Shown: positions 40,088 to 48,719 of the stretch, piece after piece | Position numbering within the stretch: position 1 is the first letter of the stretch | Layout of the letters: each line of letters opens with the position of its first letter | DNA from: an uncultured Faecalibacterium sp. | GTDB lineage: Bacteria > Bacillota > Clostridia > Oscillospirales > Ruminococcaceae | Reading direction: 5' to 3' | Assembly: GCA_934561555.1 (NCBI GenBank) | Contig: CAKTGQ010000007.1 | Location: 58,669 to 122,668 of the forward strand | Length of the DNA stretch: 64,000 nucleotides | Position numbers and translations under genes: made by a program | The notes under the pieces: model-generated | What the model saw: only the letters and a program-made list of their open reading frames with translations | Databases searched by the model: none | Told to the model about the DNA's origin: nothing

Positions 40088-41107
40088 TTGTATCCGTTTT
40101 TGGAGAGATGGGCTGCGGTCTGGTGCCGTGACCTTCTCTTTGCAACGCTTCCCGGCAGAAAGGATGTGGCCTTTATCAAAGCAAAACACAGAAAAGATGC
40201 AGCGCAAAGCGGCAAACAGAAACACAGCGGCAGCTACGCACAGACACCGGCATCCCGCTGGAAGCAGGTGCTGCTGACGCTGCTGATCTTTATTGTTCTG
40301 CTCGCCCTGCTGGGCGGGGCACTGTGGCAGAATATCTGTTATAACCGCACCCACTACACCACGGAGTTTTATCAGATCCATTCCCGCAAGCTGACCCAGA
40401 GCTGCCGGGTCGTTTTTTTGACCGATGTGCACCTGCGGGAATACGGAGAGGACAACTGCGAGCTGGTGCAGGATATCCGCAGTCTTGCCCCGGATCTGAT
40501 TTTGCTGGGCGGCGATCTTGTGACCTATGGCGCAGGTTCCAGCTATGATAATATGCTCTCCCTGTGCAGCCAGCTGAGCGAGATCGCGCCGGTGTGCGGG
40601 GTGCTGGGCAACCACGAGGACGAGCTGTATTTTCTGGACGGCGATCAGGCACTGGTGGAAAAGTTCACCGCCGCCGGGGTGACCATCCTGCGCAATCAGG
40701 AGGCGCGCTACACCGTCCACGACAATGTTATCAGCATTCTGGGCGTGGAAGGCAGCCCGGAGGACTTTTATAATTACGGAGCAAGCACCTTTATGGACGG
40801 CGTGGAATCGCAGACAGATTACGACCTGCGCATCTGTCTGGCACATGTGCCCACTTACTTTACCGAGTATCTGGAAAATTATTCCTTTGAGCTGGGTCTG
40901 GCCGGGCACACCCACGGCGGCATCGTCCGTCTGCCGAAGGTCGGCCCGCTATACAGCGCCGAGGAGGGCTTTCTGCCCGACTATGCCGGTGGCAGCTATG
41001 GGCTTGCCAACAACGCCACCCTCATCGTAAGCCGGGGACTGGGCGATTCCAGCCGGGTGCCCCGCATCAACAACGTGCCGGAGCTTTCGGTCATTGACAT
41101 CGACTAA
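40088..41107 (+). CDS. Membrane-anchored metallophosphoesterase
   Basis: After a basic N-terminal region a membrane helix lies at ~60-82. Then comes a calcineurin-like phosphoesterase domain with TDVHLRE, GGDLVTYG, GNHEDE and GHTHGG, the metal and phosphate ligands of the family (YkuE-like). The active site faces outside. The start is uncertain: TTG 40088 has a weak site close to the transcription start, while GTG 40166 directly follows AGAAAGGA. As first gene of the polysaccharide operon it may remove phosphate from a lipid carrier or polymer; this is inferred from position. Confidence 0.85.
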   Translation: MYPFLERWAAVWCRDLLFATLPGRKDVAFIKAKHRKDAAQSGKQKHSGSYAQTPASRWKQVLLTLLIFIVLLALLGGALWQNICYNRTHYTTEFYQIHSRKLTQSCRVVFLTDVHLREYGEDNCELVQDIRSLAPDLILLGGDLVTYGAGSSYDNMLSLCSQLSEIAPVCGVLGNHEDELYFLDGDQALVEKFTAAGVTILRNQEARYTVHDNVISILGVEGSPEDFYNYGASTFMDGVESQTDYDLRICLAHVPTYFTEYLENYSFELGLAGHTHGGIVRLPKVGPLYSAEEGFLPDYAGGSYGLANNATLIVSRGLGDSSRVPRINNVPELSVIDID

Positions 41108-41153: not shown

Positions 41154-42452
41154 ATGGATGACATCAAAGAAAAGATCAAACAGGCGCTGCGCCATATCTG
41201 GACAAATAAATACCGCCTGTTTCTCTGCCTGCTGACCTTGTGCTGTCTGTTCGGGCTGTTCCACTATTTTAAAAGTGCCGACAGCGCCACCGCCAGCATC
41301 TCCTTCAATTACTCCGAAGCCGCGCTGGGCATGAACCCCAACAAGACCCGCTTCAACGCCTACGAGATCGTTTCGGACGAGGTGATGGAACGCGCCATCC
41401 GGCGAGTGGGATTGCAGGACAGCCTTACCCCGTCCCAGCTGGCTGCGTGCCTTTATCTCAGCCCGGACAGCACCGGCAGCGCCAATGGCAGCGAGTACAT
41501 CAGCACCAACTACTACCTTTCCATCAACACCCGCAAGCTGGATCTGGGCAGCCGCAAACCCACGGATCTTTTGCAGAGCGTGTGCGAATCCTACCGGGAG
41601 ATCTTTCAGAGCAACTACTGCGACAATCAGAGCATCCTCATGGAAAACCTGGAAGTGACCACTGCGTGCGAGCCTTACCTGCGGTTGAACGAGCTGGAAG
41701 TACGCGCCGCTGCGCTGAACCGCTACCTGAACGCCCGCCTACAGGCGAACAAAAGCTTTACGGATGAAGCAAACCCCGACTCTGCCACCAACAACTTTAC
41801 TACGCTGGGTAAAAAAATCAACAATCTGGTGGATTACGACCTGCCCAACGCCATGGCCTTTGTGATCGAAGGCGGCGTTGCCCGGGATCCGTCCATGCTG
41901 ACCAGTATTCTGGAATATAAGAATAAGATCGATGATATTGCCATGCGCAAGAAACAAGCCTACTATGATGCAGACAAAAAGGGCATCTCCTTCTACGAAA
42001 AGTCCATGACCTCCATCATGATGATCCCCACCGTGGATGAGGCCCGCGAATACTATATGTCCCGCACCAAGACCGCCATGGACGCGCTGGCGCGGTCGGC
42101 AGATAGTGCCCTGTCCGATGCCACCGGCTATCAGTCCGAGATCGTGAGCACAAATTATGTGATCCAGAAGATCCGGGAGCTGGACGCCGGGCAGCCTCGT
42201 CTGGCAGAAGCACAGGCCATGGTGAACAAGCTGGAAACCGCCATCAACGAGATCTCGGAGCAGCTGTTCGTGCTGGATAAGTCCTACATCAAGTATAAAT
42301 CCCAGAACTATATCACTTTTACCTATGGTGTGGTCTCTTTCCTGCAGCGCTTGAACCCGAAAAAGACCCTGATGGAGTCTGTTGCCGTCATGCTGGGCGG
42401 CGCATGGCTGCTCCACGAACGCAAACGCAGAAAGGCAGAAAAACGCAAATGA
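41154..42452 (+). CDS. Wzz-like polysaccharide chain-length/co-polymerase protein
   Basis: The 432-aa product has a membrane helix near residues 20-40, a long extracellular helical region with coiled-coil character (~60-385), and a second hydrophobic segment near 408-422 before a Lys/Arg-rich end. This is the two-helix layout of Wzz/Gum polysaccharide co-polymerases, although sequence identity is not obvious to me. No kinase domain is fused. The start codon lies about 46 bp after the phosphoesterase gene. Its stop overlaps the next gene by ATGA, so both Wzz-like proteins are made together and may form a hetero-oligomer. Confidence 0.75.
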   Translation: MDDIKEKIKQALRHIWTNKYRLFLCLLTLCCLFGLFHYFKSADSATASISFNYSEAALGMNPNKTRFNAYEIVSDEVMERAIRRVGLQDSLTPSQLAACLYLSPDSTGSANGSEYISTNYYLSINTRKLDLGSRKPTDLLQSVCESYREIFQSNYCDNQSILMENLEVTTACEPYLRLNELEVRAAALNRYLNARLQANKSFTDEANPDSATNNFTTLGKKINNLVDYDLPNAMAFVIEGGVARDPSMLTSILEYKNKIDDIAMRKKQAYYDADKKGISFYEKSMTSIMMIPTVDEAREYYMSRTKTAMDALARSADSALSDATGYQSEIVSTNYVIQKIRELDAGQPRLAEAQAMVNKLETAINEISEQLFVLDKSYIKYKSQNYITFTYGVVSFLQRLNPKKTLMESVAVMLGGAWLLHERKRRKAEKRK

Positions 42453-44287
42453 AAAAGTTTGAGATCCTGCGCTATCTGAAGCGTTTCAGCCTGCTGATCT
42501 TTCTGGTATCGCTGGCAGGTGCGGCCGCCATCTATCTGTATGCAGACGGGCGGCAGAGGTACACCGCCTCTGTCATCATCCGCTATACCAACGATGGCAT
42601 CTCAGACGGCTACACCCCGGACGGCAGCGATCTGGACGTCAACGAGATCTATTCCTCCACGGTCATTTCGCAGGCCATGGATGCGCTGGGCGCTTCCGGG
42701 CGGCTAAGCACCATCCGCTCCAACATCTCGGTGACCCCGGTCATTTCGGAGGATCAGGAGACCATCAACGAGGCCCTACTGAAAAAGGGCGAAGAGACGA
42801 CCTATTTCCCCGACACCTACAAGGTAAGCCTTGTGGTGGATGGGTCGCAGGGCGCGGGCTATGCCCGCAATATGCTGGATGCCATCATCCAGAGCTACTG
42901 CACCTATTATACCGAAAAATATGTGGAGCAGAAACTCTCGCTCAACCCCTCGTCCGGCCTGCTGGACAACGGCTACGACTACTACGAGTGTATCCGCATT
43001 CTGGAAAACGATACCAATGAGATGCAGGCCTACCTGCAGAGCAAGCAGGAGCACTACCCGGACTTTCGCTCCTCCCGCACCGGCTATGCCTATGCAGACC
43101 TGTGCGATATTTATTCCGATTTTAAAAAATATACCATCCCGGAGCTGTACGCCTATGTGCTCAACGGCCCGCAGGTGCGGGACGGCACGGTGCTGCAGGA
43201 GTATTTGGCCAACAGCATCGAGAATGCAAAGCAGAACGAGCAGATCAGCACCGAGCAGCGGGACAGCCTGTGGAGCCTGACCGACCAGTATGTGTATAAG
43301 AACGCCGACCTGCTGGAAAATTACTTTACCGACCGGGGCGAGGTGGTGTCCTCGGACTACATCCTGGGCAACATCGAACTGGAAGGCGCAGGCGCTAAGG
43401 CACAGACCACCTACGACGGTCTGGTGCTGAAGCTGGTGTCGCTGGAACAGCAGGTCGCTGCCAGCCAGATCGACCGGCAGTTTCAGGAGGAGATCCTGCA
43501 AAACTTCCGCAACGTGGATTTTGGCGGCACAGACGAGCAGCACACCAAGATGGAAAGTCTGATCAATGACTACGAGACAGAGCTGAAAAAATACTACGAG
43601 ATCATCAATACCAGCAGCAAGGAACTAAACCTGTACATCAGCGCGGATTATCTGAAGATGATCAGCTCGGTGCAGGTGGCTGCCGCCATCAATGTCAAAC
43701 TGTATCTGATGCTGGCGCTGGTGCTGTTCTTCGTCATCGGCTGCTGCGGTGCCATTTTGCTGGGACGCATCTCGGATGTGGTGGATTACCTGCTGTATGT
43801 GGACAAAAAGACCGGGCTGCCCAACCGCGAAAAGCTCAATGTTTATATCAGCAGTCTGGCAGACCGTATCCTGCCGGAGGATTATACCTGCTTTGCCCTG
43901 CAGCTGGATAATCTGTCTGATATGAGCCGCCGCTTCGGCTACCATGTGGGCGACGGTATTCTGAAGGATTTTTCCGGTCTTTTGCTGCTGATGGGCGATA
44001 CCGATGGCATAGTGGGCTACAACGGCGTGGGCAAGTTCCTTGCCTTCTTTAGTGAATGCAGCAGCCGGAAGGCAGAGGTCATGATCCGCATCCTGCAAAG
44101 TCAGGTGGACGAGTACAACAAGCTGAACCCGGAATACCCCATCCTGTTCACCGCCGCATGGGCGACTTCCTCGGAGGATGACATCTATAATGTGCGGGAT
44201 CTGGTGCGTACGGCACAGAAAAAAATGTCCCTGATCGCAGAAGCGGGCGGCTCTGCCCCTGCCGGAATGGAGCGTGGTAAAGTATGA
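42449..44287 (+). CDS. Wzz-like protein fused to a degenerate GGDEF domain
   Basis: The 612-aa product has a membrane helix (~12-32), an extracellular Wzz-like helical region, and a second membrane helix (~415-440). A cytosolic GGDEF-fold domain (~448-600) follows, with the start pattern KKTGLPNREKL, then LQLDNLSDMSRRFGYHVGD matching the metal- and base-binding region of diguanylate cyclases. The signature loop is GVGKF (526-530) instead of GG(D/E)EF, so catalysis is unlikely and nucleotide sensing is more plausible. No RxxD I-site stands before it. It overlaps both neighbours by 4 bp. The layout would link a cytosolic signal to polymer length outside. Confidence 0.82.
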   Translation: MKKFEILRYLKRFSLLIFLVSLAGAAAIYLYADGRQRYTASVIIRYTNDGISDGYTPDGSDLDVNEIYSSTVISQAMDALGASGRLSTIRSNISVTPVISEDQETINEALLKKGEETTYFPDTYKVSLVVDGSQGAGYARNMLDAIIQSYCTYYTEKYVEQKLSLNPSSGLLDNGYDYYECIRILENDTNEMQAYLQSKQEHYPDFRSSRTGYAYADLCDIYSDFKKYTIPELYAYVLNGPQVRDGTVLQEYLANSIENAKQNEQISTEQRDSLWSLTDQYVYKNADLLENYFTDRGEVVSSDYILGNIELEGAGAKAQTTYDGLVLKLVSLEQQVAASQIDRQFQEEILQNFRNVDFGGTDEQHTKMESLINDYETELKKYYEIINTSSKELNLYISADYLKMISSVQVAAAINVKLYLMLALVLFFVIGCCGAILLGRISDVVDYLLYVDKKTGLPNREKLNVYISSLADRILPEDYTCFALQLDNLSDMSRRFGYHVGDGILKDFSGLLLLMGDTDGIVGYNGVGKFLAFFSECSSRKAEVMIRILQSQVDEYNKLNPEYPILFTAAWATSSEDDIYNVRDLVRTAQKKMSLIAEAGGSAPAGMERGKV

Positions 44288-45483
44288 TCCAGAATCGACG
44301 CGCTTATCAGCTGATCCACTGCCGCACCCACAGCCGTCTGCTGGCGGGCACTGCTGCCGTGTGCGGCGCCGCCTGCGGCCACGCAGACCTTGCGTTGTAT
44401 CGTCTGCTGCACCGGGGCGGTGCGCCGCTGCCGGACAGCACACAGGCCGACCGCGCTGCGCTGGCAGCGCTGTGCCCGAAGCCCGCAGCGGAGGAGACCT
44501 GCCCGCCGCTGCCGCCGCAGGACCCGGCGGTGGCCCTTTCGGTCATCGTGCCGGTATATAACGGCGAAGCCACCATTGCTGCTTGTCTGGACAGCATTTT
44601 GCAGCAGGAGACCGGCTGCACCGTGCAGCTGATCGTGGTAGACAGCAATTCCACCGACGGCACAGCCGCCGTGCTGGAACGCTACCGGACACAGCCCGGA
44701 GTGGTGCTGTGCAATTGCAGCGCACCCCGCAGCGCTGCCGCCGCCCGCAATGAAGGGCTGCGCCATGCCGTGGGGCACTGGCTGATGTTCGTGGACAGCG
44801 ATGACCTTTTGCTGCCCGGCGCCGTCCGCACCCTGCTGGAGGCCGCGCAGCGCCTTGACGCCGATGTGGTGCAGGGCGGCTGGCAGTACCTGTACACCGA
44901 CGGCACCCACGGCCCGGTGCAGCGCTACCCGGCGGCAGTCTACACCGGTGCCGCCGCGCCGGAGCGGTTCGAGCTGCCCGGGATGCCATGGGGCAAGATC
45001 TACCGGCGGGAGCTGTTTGCGCAGGTGCGCTTTCCGGCTTACTATACCTGCTTTGAGGACGCCATCATTCATTTTCTGGTGTTCCGGCAGGCCAAAACCG
45101 TGGCCTCTGTGCCGGAGATGGTCTATCTGTGGCGCAAAAATCCCAAGGGGCTTACTGCCACCAGCCAGCACCGCCCTGCCGCCGTGCAGAGCTACTGGAT
45201 CATAGAGCAGCTGCTGGCACAGGATGCCGCGCTGGGCTTGCCCCACGATGCGCTATACCGCTGCACCCTGACGCTGCAGCTTTCGGCTTTCTGCTATGCC
45301 ACCGTATCCGGCCTGCCACCGGAAACGCAGCAGGCGGTTTTCCGGCTGTGCTGCGCTATGTACGCCAAGGCGCTGCCACAGGAAGGCACACTGCCCCGCC
45401 GTGCCCGCTGGGGTGCCCGCGCCCTGCGGCAGCGGAACTTTGGGCTGTGGTGCCGCTACGGCAGAAGATTTCAATTGTTATAA
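44284..45483 (+). CDS. Family-2 glycosyltransferase
   Basis: After ~80 N-terminal residues of unknown role, a GT-A fold starts with LSVIVPVYNGEATIAACLDS. It has the DSNSTDG nucleotide-binding segment, ARNEGLRHA, and the FVDSDD metal-binding DxD motif. It would move a sugar from a nucleotide donor to the growing polymer at the inner membrane face. The ATG overlaps the previous stop (ATGA). Donor and acceptor cannot be predicted. A His/Cys-containing N-terminal extension is unusual for GT2 enzymes. Confidence 0.9.
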   Translation: MIQNRRAYQLIHCRTHSRLLAGTAAVCGAACGHADLALYRLLHRGGAPLPDSTQADRAALAALCPKPAAEETCPPLPPQDPAVALSVIVPVYNGEATIAACLDSILQQETGCTVQLIVVDSNSTDGTAAVLERYRTQPGVVLCNCSAPRSAAAARNEGLRHAVGHWLMFVDSDDLLLPGAVRTLLEAAQRLDADVVQGGWQYLYTDGTHGPVQRYPAAVYTGAAAPERFELPGMPWGKIYRRELFAQVRFPAYYTCFEDAIIHFLVFRQAKTVASVPEMVYLWRKNPKGLTATSQHRPAAVQSYWIIEQLLAQDAALGLPHDALYRCTLTLQLSAFCYATVSGLPPETQQAVFRLCCAMYAKALPQEGTLPRRARWGARALRQRNFGLWCRYGRRFQLL

Positions 45484-45497
45484 TGTGAGGAGTACCT

Positions 45498-46607
45498 ATG
45501 ATACGAGTGCTGCATTCGGTCAGCAATATGGACCGCGGCGGGATCGAGACCATGCTGATGAACTACTACCGGCATATCGACCGCAGCAAAGTCCAGTTCG
45601 ATTTTATCGTCAACAAGAAAAAGCCCGGCGATTACGATGACGAGATCCGCCGTCTGGGTGGCCACATCTACCAAAGCCCGGGGCTTGACCCGCTGCATTA
45701 CCCGGCGTATCTGCGCTTTGTGCAGCAGACCGTAGCCGCAGACCCCCGCATCCGCATCCTGCACGCCCACAACGAGGCCATGGAACTGTACGCCCTGAAG
45801 GGCGCGGAGAAGGCGGGGCTGCCCGTGCGCATTGCCCATGCCCATAATATCTGGATCGTCCGGGACTACAAGTGGCCGCTGAAGATGTTCTGCAAGCAGC
45901 TGCTGCCCGGCGCGGCTACCCACCTGTGGTCCTGCGGCCGGGACGCGGGCATCTACTACTTTGGCAAAGCAGACTGGGAGCGCCGGGGACAGATCATTCC
46001 CAACGCCATCGAGCCGGAGACCTTCCGCTTCTCCCCCGCCGTCCGCGCCGAAATGCGCGCCCGCTACGGACTGGAGGACCGGGTGGTGCTGGGTCATGTG
46101 GGACGCTTTGATGTCCGCAAGAACCACGAGCGTCTGTTGGAGATCTTTGCCGCCTTTTTGCAGCTGGAGCCCCGGGCGATGCTGGTGCTCATCGGCACCG
46201 GCAGACTGGAACAGGCTGTCCGCACACAGGCGCAGGAACTGGGCATCACAGACCATATCCTGTTTGCCGGACTGCAAAGCAATGTGGCAGACTGGTACCA
46301 GCTGATGGACCTCTTCGTCATGCCCTCCCGCTTCGAGGGTCTGCCGGTGGTGGGCATCGAGGCGCAGGCCGCCGGGCTGGGGTGCGTATTTTCGGACGCA
46401 GTGCCGGAGGAGGTTCTGCTTTCGCCCCATGCCATCCAGATCCCGCTTTCTGCCAGCAATGCAGACTGGGCGGCAGGCTTGCAGCGGATGCTCCAACAGC
46501 CCTGCGAACGCTCTGCCGGTGCAGAACTGATCCGGCAGGCGGGCTACGATATCAACATCGCCGCCGCTCGCTTACAGCAGCAGTACCTGCAGCTGAGCGA
46601 AAGGTAA
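45498..46607 (+). CDS. Family-4 glycosyltransferase
   Basis: The 369-aa product is a GT-B fold enzyme with MDRGGIETMLMNYYRH near the start (acceptor loop), HAHN (about residue 93), GHVGRFDVRKNHERLLEIF, and the EX7E-type donor region PSRFEGLPVVGIEAQAAG. These match capsule and exopolysaccharide GT4 enzymes. TGAGGAGT precedes the ATG, 14 bp after the GT2 gene. It acts in the cytosol at the membrane on a lipid-linked sugar, probably. Confidence 0.93.
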   Translation: MIRVLHSVSNMDRGGIETMLMNYYRHIDRSKVQFDFIVNKKKPGDYDDEIRRLGGHIYQSPGLDPLHYPAYLRFVQQTVAADPRIRILHAHNEAMELYALKGAEKAGLPVRIAHAHNIWIVRDYKWPLKMFCKQLLPGAATHLWSCGRDAGIYYFGKADWERRGQIIPNAIEPETFRFSPAVRAEMRARYGLEDRVVLGHVGRFDVRKNHERLLEIFAAFLQLEPRAMLVLIGTGRLEQAVRTQAQELGITDHILFAGLQSNVADWYQLMDLFVMPSRFEGLPVVGIEAQAAGLGCVFSDAVPEEVLLSPHAIQIPLSASNADWAAGLQRMLQQPCERSAGAELIRQAGYDINIAAARLQQQYLQLSER

Positions 46608-46616
46608 GGCAGCAGG

Positions 46617-47678
46617 ATGCAACAAACTGCCAAGCGTCTGGATCACATCGACATTGCTAAGGCCATTGGCCTGCTGCTGGTGATCTACGGCCACACCTTT
46701 CGGATGTCCATGCGCGCCATGCATCCATGGTGTGCGTTTTCGTATACCTTCGTCTACCGGTTCCACGTTCCGCTGCTGTTTCTGCTCTCCGGTATGGGCT
46801 GCACCCTGACCGCGCAGAAGAACCGCAGCCTTTCTGCCCGGCAGTTTTTGCACAAAAAGGCGCACAGCCTATTGCTGCCATGGGGCGTGTATTCGGCCTT
46901 TTTGTACCTGCTGTTTTATTTGGCAAACCAGCTGCCGCCGGTGCGAGCGCTGTTAGCCAGCAGCGCATACCAGCTGCGGCAGCCCGCAGAATATCTCTGG
47001 CTGGTGCTGCGCAACGAAAACCCCTACGGTTTTCATCTGTGGTATCTGCCCACCTTGTTCTGGTTTGTCCTCACGGCATGGCTGCTGGACAAGACCCTGT
47101 CCCCTGCGGCAGCCCGGGCGGCAAAGCTGGCGTTGGTGGTTGCGCTGCCCGTGTGCTATCAACTGCTTTTCTCCGGTTGGTTCTGGACGGTAAAAAGCTA
47201 TTTTCAGCAGGGCGCGTTTTTCTTTCTGGGCTGCGTACTCCCGCGTGAAAAGGCTGAACAGCATGCAAAGCCGCTGGTGCTTTTTGGCGCTTTGTGCGGC
47301 CTGTGGGTGGTGTGGGAGCTGCTGTCCCCCACTATGATCCGGTCGGACGGTCTGTTTGCCGAGGCTGTGCGCGCATGGGTGGACTATTTTGCGGTCAGCG
47401 GGTTCTGTGTGGGCATCTGGGCAGCGTGCGTGCTGCTGCAAAAGCCCCTGCGGCGGCTGGTTCCTTTGGGAAAGAATTCTATGCTGTTCTATCTGTATCA
47501 TCAGCCCTTTTGCTGCGCAGTGCCGGGGCTTGTGCTGTATGATAAGCTGGGTGTTTCTGCAGGCTGGACCGTTTTCATCTGCGGTGCGGCCAGTCTGGTA
47601 ATGCCGTGCCTGCTCTGTTGGCTTGCCGGCCGACTGCATCTGCGGCCGCTGTTGCGGCGGCTCGGCCTGCCGGGATAA
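46617..47678 (+). CDS. Acyltransferase-3 family membrane protein
   Basis: The 353-aa product has about ten membrane segments and starts RLDHIDIAKAIGLLLVIYGHTF, with the His of the Acyl_transf_3 family, followed by a FRFHVPLLFLLSG-like segment (here YRFHVPLLFLLSGMG). Such proteins acetylate or otherwise acylate sugars of surface polymers. It lies between the GT4 and second GT2 genes, so O-acetylation of the same polymer is likely. AGGCAGCAGG precedes the ATG. Confidence 0.9.
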   Translation: MQQTAKRLDHIDIAKAIGLLLVIYGHTFRMSMRAMHPWCAFSYTFVYRFHVPLLFLLSGMGCTLTAQKNRSLSARQFLHKKAHSLLLPWGVYSAFLYLLFYLANQLPPVRALLASSAYQLRQPAEYLWLVLRNENPYGFHLWYLPTLFWFVLTAWLLDKTLSPAAARAAKLALVVALPVCYQLLFSGWFWTVKSYFQQGAFFFLGCVLPREKAEQHAKPLVLFGALCGLWVVWELLSPTMIRSDGLFAEAVRAWVDYFAVSGFCVGIWAACVLLQKPLRRLVPLGKNSMLFYLYHQPFCCAVPGLVLYDKLGVSAGWTVFICGAASLVMPCLLCWLAGRLHLRPLLRRLGLPG

Positions 47679-47699: not shown

Positions 47700-48719
47700 A
47701 TGCCCTGTATTACGTTTATACTGCCCATTTATAATATGGAGCGCCTGCTGCCCCGGGCGCTGCGCTCACTGCGGGCACAGACCCTGACCGACTTTGAGGC
47801 TATCCTTATCAACGATGGCTCTAAGGACGGCAGCGCCGCGCTGTGCGCACAGGCTGCTGCCGAGGATGCGCGGTTTCGCTTTATCGACCAGCCCAACGGC
47901 GGTGTAGCCGCTGCCCGCAATGCGGGTCTGGATGCCGCCCGGGGAGAATATATCTTCTTTCTGGACCCGGACGACTGGGTGGAGCCGGACGCCGCAGAGG
48001 TGCTGTACAGTGCCGCCCGGGACGCGGATGCGGACTGCGTGGAGTTTGGGATGTATCTGGACAGTTATGATGAAAACGACCAGCTGCTGCACACACAGAC
48101 CAGCAGCTGCGCCCTCTCCGGCATGTACCGGGGCGAGCCCTTCAAGGAGCATTTCGACGAGATGGCATCCTCGTATCTGATCATCAATAAGCTGTTCCGC
48201 AGGGCATTTCTGGAACAGTACCATCTGCGCTTTCCCTGCCATCAGCTGGGGGAGGACGGGCTGTTTTTTGTAGCCTTCTATCGCCAGAATCCCGGCTGTC
48301 TGGTGGTGCTGGAAAAGCCGCTGTACCACTACACGATTGCCCGGCAAGGCAGCCTGTCCAACCGCTACCACCCGGAACGGCTGGAGGATAACTTCTATCT
48401 CAGTGACGCCGTGTGGGACACCGTTGCCGCGTGGGGCATGCAGGACAGCCCCATGCACCGCGCAAAGGCCAATTACTGCACCGTCCGCGACCTGATGATG
48501 GGGGTCAAGAACCTTGGCAGCAGTCCGCTTTCCCTTGCAGAGCAGAGCGCATGGCTGCGCAGTACTCTGCAAAAGCCCCGGGTGCGCACCGCTGTGCGCA
48601 CCACCCCGCTGCACGCCATGCTGAGCCGGAACGACCGGGTAAAGCTGCTGTTGCTCAAGCTGCGGCTGTACCGCACGGTGCTGCTGCTCTCGGGCGCAAA
48701 TCAGCGTAAGAATACCTAA
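47700..48719 (+). CDS. Family-2 glycosyltransferase
   Basis: The 339-aa product has a GT-A domain starting ITFILPIYNMERLLPRALRS, with LINDGSKDGS, AARNAGLDAARGEYIFFLDPDDW (DxD-type metal site) and a C-terminal helical part. It resembles capsular GT2 enzymes. CAAGGAG precedes the ATG. It is the last gene of the operon and is followed by a perfect terminator. Flippase, polymerase and priming transferase are absent from the operon, so these must lie elsewhere. Confidence 0.92.
   Translation: MPCITFILPIYNMERLLPRALRSLRAQTLTDFEAILINDGSKDGSAALCAQAAAEDARFRFIDQPNGGVAAARNAGLDAARGEYIFFLDPDDWVEPDAAEVLYSAARDADADCVEFGMYLDSYDENDQLLHTQTSSCALSGMYRGEPFKEHFDEMASSYLIINKLFRRAFLEQYHLRFPCHQLGEDGLFFVAFYRQNPGCLVVLEKPLYHYTIARQGSLSNRYHPERLEDNFYLSDAVWDTVAAWGMQDSPMHRAKANYCTVRDLMMGVKNLGSSPLSLAEQSAWLRSTLQKPRVRTAVRTTPLHAMLSRNDRVKLLLLKLRLYRTVLLLSGANQRKNT

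Follow-up and report, generated by a model that had tools for sequence, protein, structure and literature searches.

What might a degenerate GGDEF domain do when it is attached to a protein that resembles a Wzz/Wzc-type polysaccharide co-polymerase? This question is raised by a locus within the window, which is the whole stretch of 64,000 nucleotides analyzed here from an uncultured species of Faecalibacterium, a genus that is common in the gut. All genes described for this locus are on the plus strand. A metallophosphoesterase gene (positions 40088..41107; Pfam Metallophos, 47.7 bits), whose start codon is uncertain and whose product carries one N-terminal membrane helix as judged by a hydrophobic segment, is followed by a gene (41154..42452) for a first co-polymerase-like subunit that lacks a cytosolic domain. 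This subunit, called PCPA, matches the profile of the fusion family with 46 bits. The fusion gene itself, PCPB (42449..44287), overlaps by 4 bp with the start of a GT2 glycosyltransferase gene (44284..45483; Pfam, 109.9 bits), in agreement with the overlap first described for this DNA. Genes for a GT4 glycosyltransferase (45498..46607; Pfam, 82 bits), an acyltransferase (46617..47678; Pfam Acyl_transf_3, 84.9 bits) and a second GT2 glycosyltransferase (47700..48719; Pfam, 114.3 bits) lie downstream. An Rfam scan of the window yielded no c-di-GMP riboswitch or other element at gathering score.

The cytosolic GGDEF domain of PCPB

Hydropathy and a structure model place a large outer domain of alpha/beta and helical character between two membrane helices of PCPB. 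The second of these (residues 420-438, positions 43706..43762) was located by hydropathy and corresponds to a helix spanning residues 416-450 in the model. The original prediction held that this Wzz-like protein is fused to a degenerate GGDEF domain with a GGDEF fold. This is supported by the agreement of Pfam with the predicted structure, Foldseek matches and fold comparison, which define a C-terminal GGDEF domain at residues 450-600 (43796..44248).

An alignment of 31 family domains with five intact GGDEF domains reveals that the sequence YNGVGKF (residues 524-530, positions 44018..44038) replaces the RYGGDEF loop in the window protein. A GG[DE]EF motif is found in none of the 31 family domains, which rules out an active diguanylate cyclase. 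The YN of the loop is kept in 30 of 31 domains and the motif Phe in all 31, while the base-contacting Asn and Asp residues are kept in 24/31 and 29/31, respectively. In the window domain this Asn has been changed to Ser, and residues of the phosphate and metal sites are altered as well. The I-site (RxxD, five residues before the GGDEF motif) has neither its Arg nor its Asp in any of the 31 domains, and so c-di-GMP binding through this site is ruled out on sequence.

These losses are not the result of neutral decay, as evident by dN/dS values of 0.07-0.23 for the GGDEF part, which are similar to those of the outer part (0.08-0.20; 10 pairs among five genes of the genus). In eight homologues (P0015-P0021 and P0026) the co-polymerase part is 99% identical to that of P0002 and the GGDEF domain is just 39-40% identical, and thus the cytosolic domain seems to have been swapped as a unit. 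One 880 aa member of the fusion family (L056:1501-4143, genome G210) carries a long low-complexity tail beyond its GGDEF domain.

PelD, a degenerate GGDEF receptor for c-di-GMP encoded in a polysaccharide operon, and PssE from Listeria resemble PCPB in that a non-cyclase GGDEF domain is linked to polysaccharide synthesis. The GGDEF domain of PCPB differs from both in having no I-site and in being part of a co-polymerase-like protein that is encoded in a Wzy-type cluster. PssE is reported as a dead GGDEF protein of a Gram-positive polysaccharide operon that binds c-di-GMP via its I-site (PMC4125290). Because none of the 31 family domains has the I-site and the window protein carries Ser at the position of the base-contacting Asn, this route of c-di-GMP sensing is unavailable to the window GGDEF domain.

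A gene pair in Wzy-type polysaccharide clusters

A protein search with PCPB returned 605 proteins at an E value of 1e-3, the best 120 of which were listed. Among the matches listed, full-length matches to the fusion occur in at least 20 of 391 genomes of the class and are spread across many of its families, which rules out a one-off fusion or an assembly artefact. One protein cluster that is 92% identical to the window PCPB represents 15,617 member sequences. Within the genus the gene is patchy, with copies at 90% identity or higher in 4 of 31 genomes; variants include a 33% version in G026 and an EAL-type version in G014. The fusion can accordingly be found in other Clostridia. The original remark that no described system with this exact layout was known agrees with the literature searched, but the layout is that of a widespread family. 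A full-text literature search, judged by titles and the openings of abstracts of top matches and with subscription journals mostly outside its scope, produced no description of a protein in which GGDEF or EAL is joined to a Wzz/Wzc-type co-polymerase.

Genes for PCPA and PCPB are adjacent in 11 of the 61 genomes of relatives searched. In G042, the PCPA and PCPB searches both match one gene near a contig end, and G012 has a PCPA-like gene alone, with no match to PCPB. This lone gene (L031:9896-11275), which is on the opposite strand and has a divergent tail, adjoins lepA as does the window locus, and is possibly a decayed remnant. Among the 13 clusters mapped with homology weighting, 12 have a metallophosphoesterase gene next to the pair, the exception being L038; none was labelled for the L037 cluster in an earlier map.

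The clusters of relatives encode Wzy-type machinery. They include a sugar transferase (217 and 210 bits in the two tested), Wzy_C polymerases (40-47 bits in 3/3 tested) and glycosyltransferases. Further Wzy_C matches score 36.6, 31.6 and 30.6 bits, the latter two just below the cut-off of 31.7. Only one of six flippase-like candidates exceeds its Pfam cut-off (Polysacc_synt, 34.3 bits), and the remaining flippase labels derive from similarity to genes of L004 and L005, or are guesses.

In the window, the wzy gene is missing. Four further loci of the genus (L001, L002, L003 and L039) have it after the GT4 gene, and the GT4 and acyltransferase genes of the window are separated by only 9 bp (46608..46616, no strand), with no wzy between them. 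A tblastn search of the 64 kb window with two wzy proteins gave no match. Therefore, the pair in this strain may use a polymerase encoded elsewhere or may be idle.

Assignment of the outer part of PCPB to the co-polymerases draws on several types of evidence. Foldseek matches PCPB to Wzc (9r62) with an E value of 3.7e-6, but with a low TM-score of 0.18. The Pfam Wzz profile scores 14.5 bits, below its cut-off of 25.5, and reaches 23.1 bits at best among the relatives scanned; none of four PCPA-type relatives tested has a Pfam match. A sequence-profile search of the PDB with PCPB gave matches confined to the GGDEF part and found no co-polymerase. The 50 VIA-align matches listed likewise align mainly with the GGDEF part, and so barely probe the outer part. 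No fused kinase is detected in PCPB by Pfam, and in 0 of 16 genomes does a BY-kinase gene (TIGR01007, over cut-off) adjoin the PCPA/PCPB pair, although such a gene is present elsewhere in 15 of the 16.

We infer that PCPA and PCPB form two subunits of a Wzy-type co-polymerase, which would act in polymerization and chain-length control. Like Wzc and CapA-CapB (PCP-2a proteins with a BY-kinase), PCPB has two membrane helices, a large outer domain, a regulatory cytosolic domain C-terminal to the second helix, and a place in a Wzy-type cluster. These systems have the kinase at the position where the PCPB family has either a degenerate GGDEF domain or an EAL domain. The presence of two paralogous subunits, with BY-kinase genes located elsewhere in the genome, is a further difference. 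The PCP-1 proteins Wzz and WzzE share the topology and weak N-terminal similarity with PCPB, and are devoid of its additional cytosolic domain.

An EAL sister branch and neighboring signaling genes

In relatives of about 730-765 aa, the alignment with PCPB stops at or shortly after the second membrane helix, and an EAL domain occupies the position of the GGDEF domain in all eight of those given to Pfam (92-203 bits). A search with one such protein returned 152 proteins, and all 120 matches listed carry a precomputed EAL domain. All 129 EAL-type relatives retain eight residues of the EAL site (E, R, N, E, D, K, E, Q). Of the 129, only one still has the second Asp of the DD motif and only two have the Glu of AEG; the loop Glu is kept in none, and the Leu of EAL has become Phe in 112. 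From this residue pattern, the EAL domain of the sister branch looks mostly dead yet competent to bind.

A third group has the co-polymerase part without any cytosolic domain and is found in similar clusters. A tree built from the co-polymerase part alone separates the 31 GGDEF forms by one branch (support 99) and 12 EAL forms by another (support 97), while the domain-less forms lie elsewhere. This tree has 55 rows, carries a long-branch warning, and counts one PCPA-type protein (L067_76) among its 12 domain-less rows. An ancestral GGDEF-EAL tandem followed by reciprocal loss is a possible origin of the two branches.

The family can be distinguished from other proteins with degenerate domains of this type. 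LapD combines a dead GGDEF domain and an EAL domain in one protein with a HAMP relay, whereas Pfam gives solely GGDEF in the window protein and solely EAL in the eight sister-clade proteins scanned, so that each occurs singly. LapD has also lost the E of its EAL motif (KVL), which is kept in 129/129 EAL-type relatives, and its outer domain differs from the co-polymerase-like one seen here. The EAL domains of FimX, MorA and DosP are not fused to a co-polymerase-like protein as in the sister branch, most members of which differ from these proteins in lacking the second Asp and the AEG Glu.

Intact GGDEF proteins, as well as EAL and GGDEF-EAL proteins, are encoded in or near several of the clusters. 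Of 36 genomes, 19 have another GGDEF/EAL match no more than 10 kb from the co-polymerase gene, where 2.05 are expected from genome-wide numbers, and 22 have one within 15 kb (2.92 expected); the other 14 have no such match within 15 kb on the contig searched. The 36 genomes are not independent, since a single clade (13 examined) contributes 12 of the 19 genomes with a match inside 10 kb, and leaving out this largest clade yields 7 positives among 23 genomes where 1.43 are expected (P 0.0002). Neither of the two domain-less genomes counted has a nearby GGDEF/EAL gene. In 12 of 13 genomes of the clade just mentioned, an EAL protein of ~455-475 aa is encoded at a distance of 6.3-6.5 kb from the fusion gene (for example L033:16785-18149, L035:17033-18397 and L110:3030-4430), and in the thirteenth (G112) an EAL match of similar size is on a different contig. 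This protein is a candidate partner of the GGDEF-type domain.

Some genomes confine these domains largely to the locus. In G113 (96% complete) and G239 (88%), both GGDEF matches, one of which is the fusion, and both EAL matches reside inside it. The non-fused GGDEF protein, also confirmed by Pfam for G113, has an intact GGDEF motif, with neighboring site residues that differ from those of the intact domains of G001. The one GGDEF gene of G417 lies 6.6 kb away and encodes both the GGDEF and the RxxD motif in intact form, and the fused EAL domain is the only one of the genome, as is also true for G208, G362 and G398. The link is weak in the genus of the window, where G001 has 11 GGDEF matches, the nearest other one being 11.7 kb away. 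PilZ domains were detected in 0 of 15 genomes of this kind, and in 2 of 12 genomes of an earlier set (G004 and G023). With 150 candidates scored per genome, a search for c-di-GMP-I riboswitches gave matches in 2 of 4 genomes of the genus and in none of 6 from outside it. Given these PilZ and riboswitch occurrences, the notion that the fusion could be the only target of c-di-GMP remains conjecture.

Several other explanations deserve consideration. The degenerate GGDEF domain could be a plain structural or oligomerization module that joins the cytosolic ends of co-polymerases with no ligand or signal. This idea fits the loss of the cyclase motif and I-site in every domain and the existence of domain-less relatives in similar clusters. 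However, it does not readily account for the preserved loop YN, for the presence at the same place of EAL, another fold of the c-di-GMP family, with eight invariant site residues, or for the clustering of GGDEF/EAL genes around the locus, and we regard it as unlikely. A purine-nucleotide sensor, for GTP or another nucleotide unrelated to c-di-GMP, that tells the polymerase the growth state of the cell would be in keeping with the retention of the base-contacting Asn and Asp in most members. We find this improbable, since the metal and phosphate residues are mostly lost, the window domain has Ser in place of Asn, and both the EAL sister clade and the nearby GGDEF/EAL genes would be left unexplained.

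Sensor-TM-GGDEF is a very common protein layout, and PCPB could thus be a degraded sensor cyclase with an ordinary extracellular sensor whose polysaccharide neighbors are there by chance or as targets. The subthreshold Wzz score of PCPB would suit this scenario. It is very improbable in our estimation, given that PCPA and the domain-less members have the same outer part without GGDEF, that clusters with the sugar transferase, Wzy_C protein and glycosyltransferases recur, and that Wzc is among the Foldseek matches.

Possible control of surface polysaccharides by a signaling domain

The interpretation we favor, as somewhat the better bet, is that the PCPA/PCPB co-polymerase is gated by a non-enzymatic cytosolic signaling domain whose input is related to c-di-GMP and which alters polymerization or chain length. 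PCPB would carry this domain just inside the membrane in place of the Wzc tyrosine kinase, as a dead GGDEF in the branch of the window and as an EAL in the sister branch. For the EAL branch, c-di-GMP itself is the most likely input, to which the conserved site residues point indirectly. For the GGDEF branch, either a ligand that occupies the altered YNG loop or a docked GGDEF/EAL protein encoded at the locus might serve as the input. A change of state in the cytosolic domain would then be relayed by the second membrane helix to the outer part, which would modify polymerization or chain length by inside-out signaling, as in LapD, a reported precedent for dead GGDEF/EAL domains that work in this direction (PMC3032553).

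The proposal that a second messenger sets polymer length or export is therefore retained in part. The EAL sister clade, its conserved site residues and the GGDEF/EAL genes around the locus speak for it, but the absent I-site and the Asn to Ser change in the window protein speak against it in the form of the I-site sensing described for PssE. Because an EAL domain is present at the same spot in relatives, an internal signal molecule may control the building of surface sugars.

More broadly, and more tentatively, Clostridia that include the genus of the window might possess a co-polymerase family in which the kinase has been replaced by a dead GGDEF or EAL domain that binds c-di-GMP or docks its enzymes, and that directly controls surface-polysaccharide polymerization. 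In some species c-di-GMP might have this as its main or sole protein target, with the whole system serving one polymer; we lean slightly against this larger proposal as a whole. In the sections seen of a 2025 review (PMC12220298), c-di-GMP is mentioned solely in connection with polysaccharides of the synthase type, and autophosphorylating co-polymerases are credited with control of Wzy-type chain length. F. prausnitzii HTF-F is reported to have an extracellular polymeric matrix that attenuates DSS-induced colitis (PMC4409148), and that the window cluster makes such a matrix is a conjecture at most. If the proposed function is true, such a co-polymerase, with a GGDEF or EAL domain of its own, would tie c-di-GMP directly to Wzy-type polymers at the protein level, and might provide an answer to what c-di-GMP does in Clostridia without detected PilZ domains.
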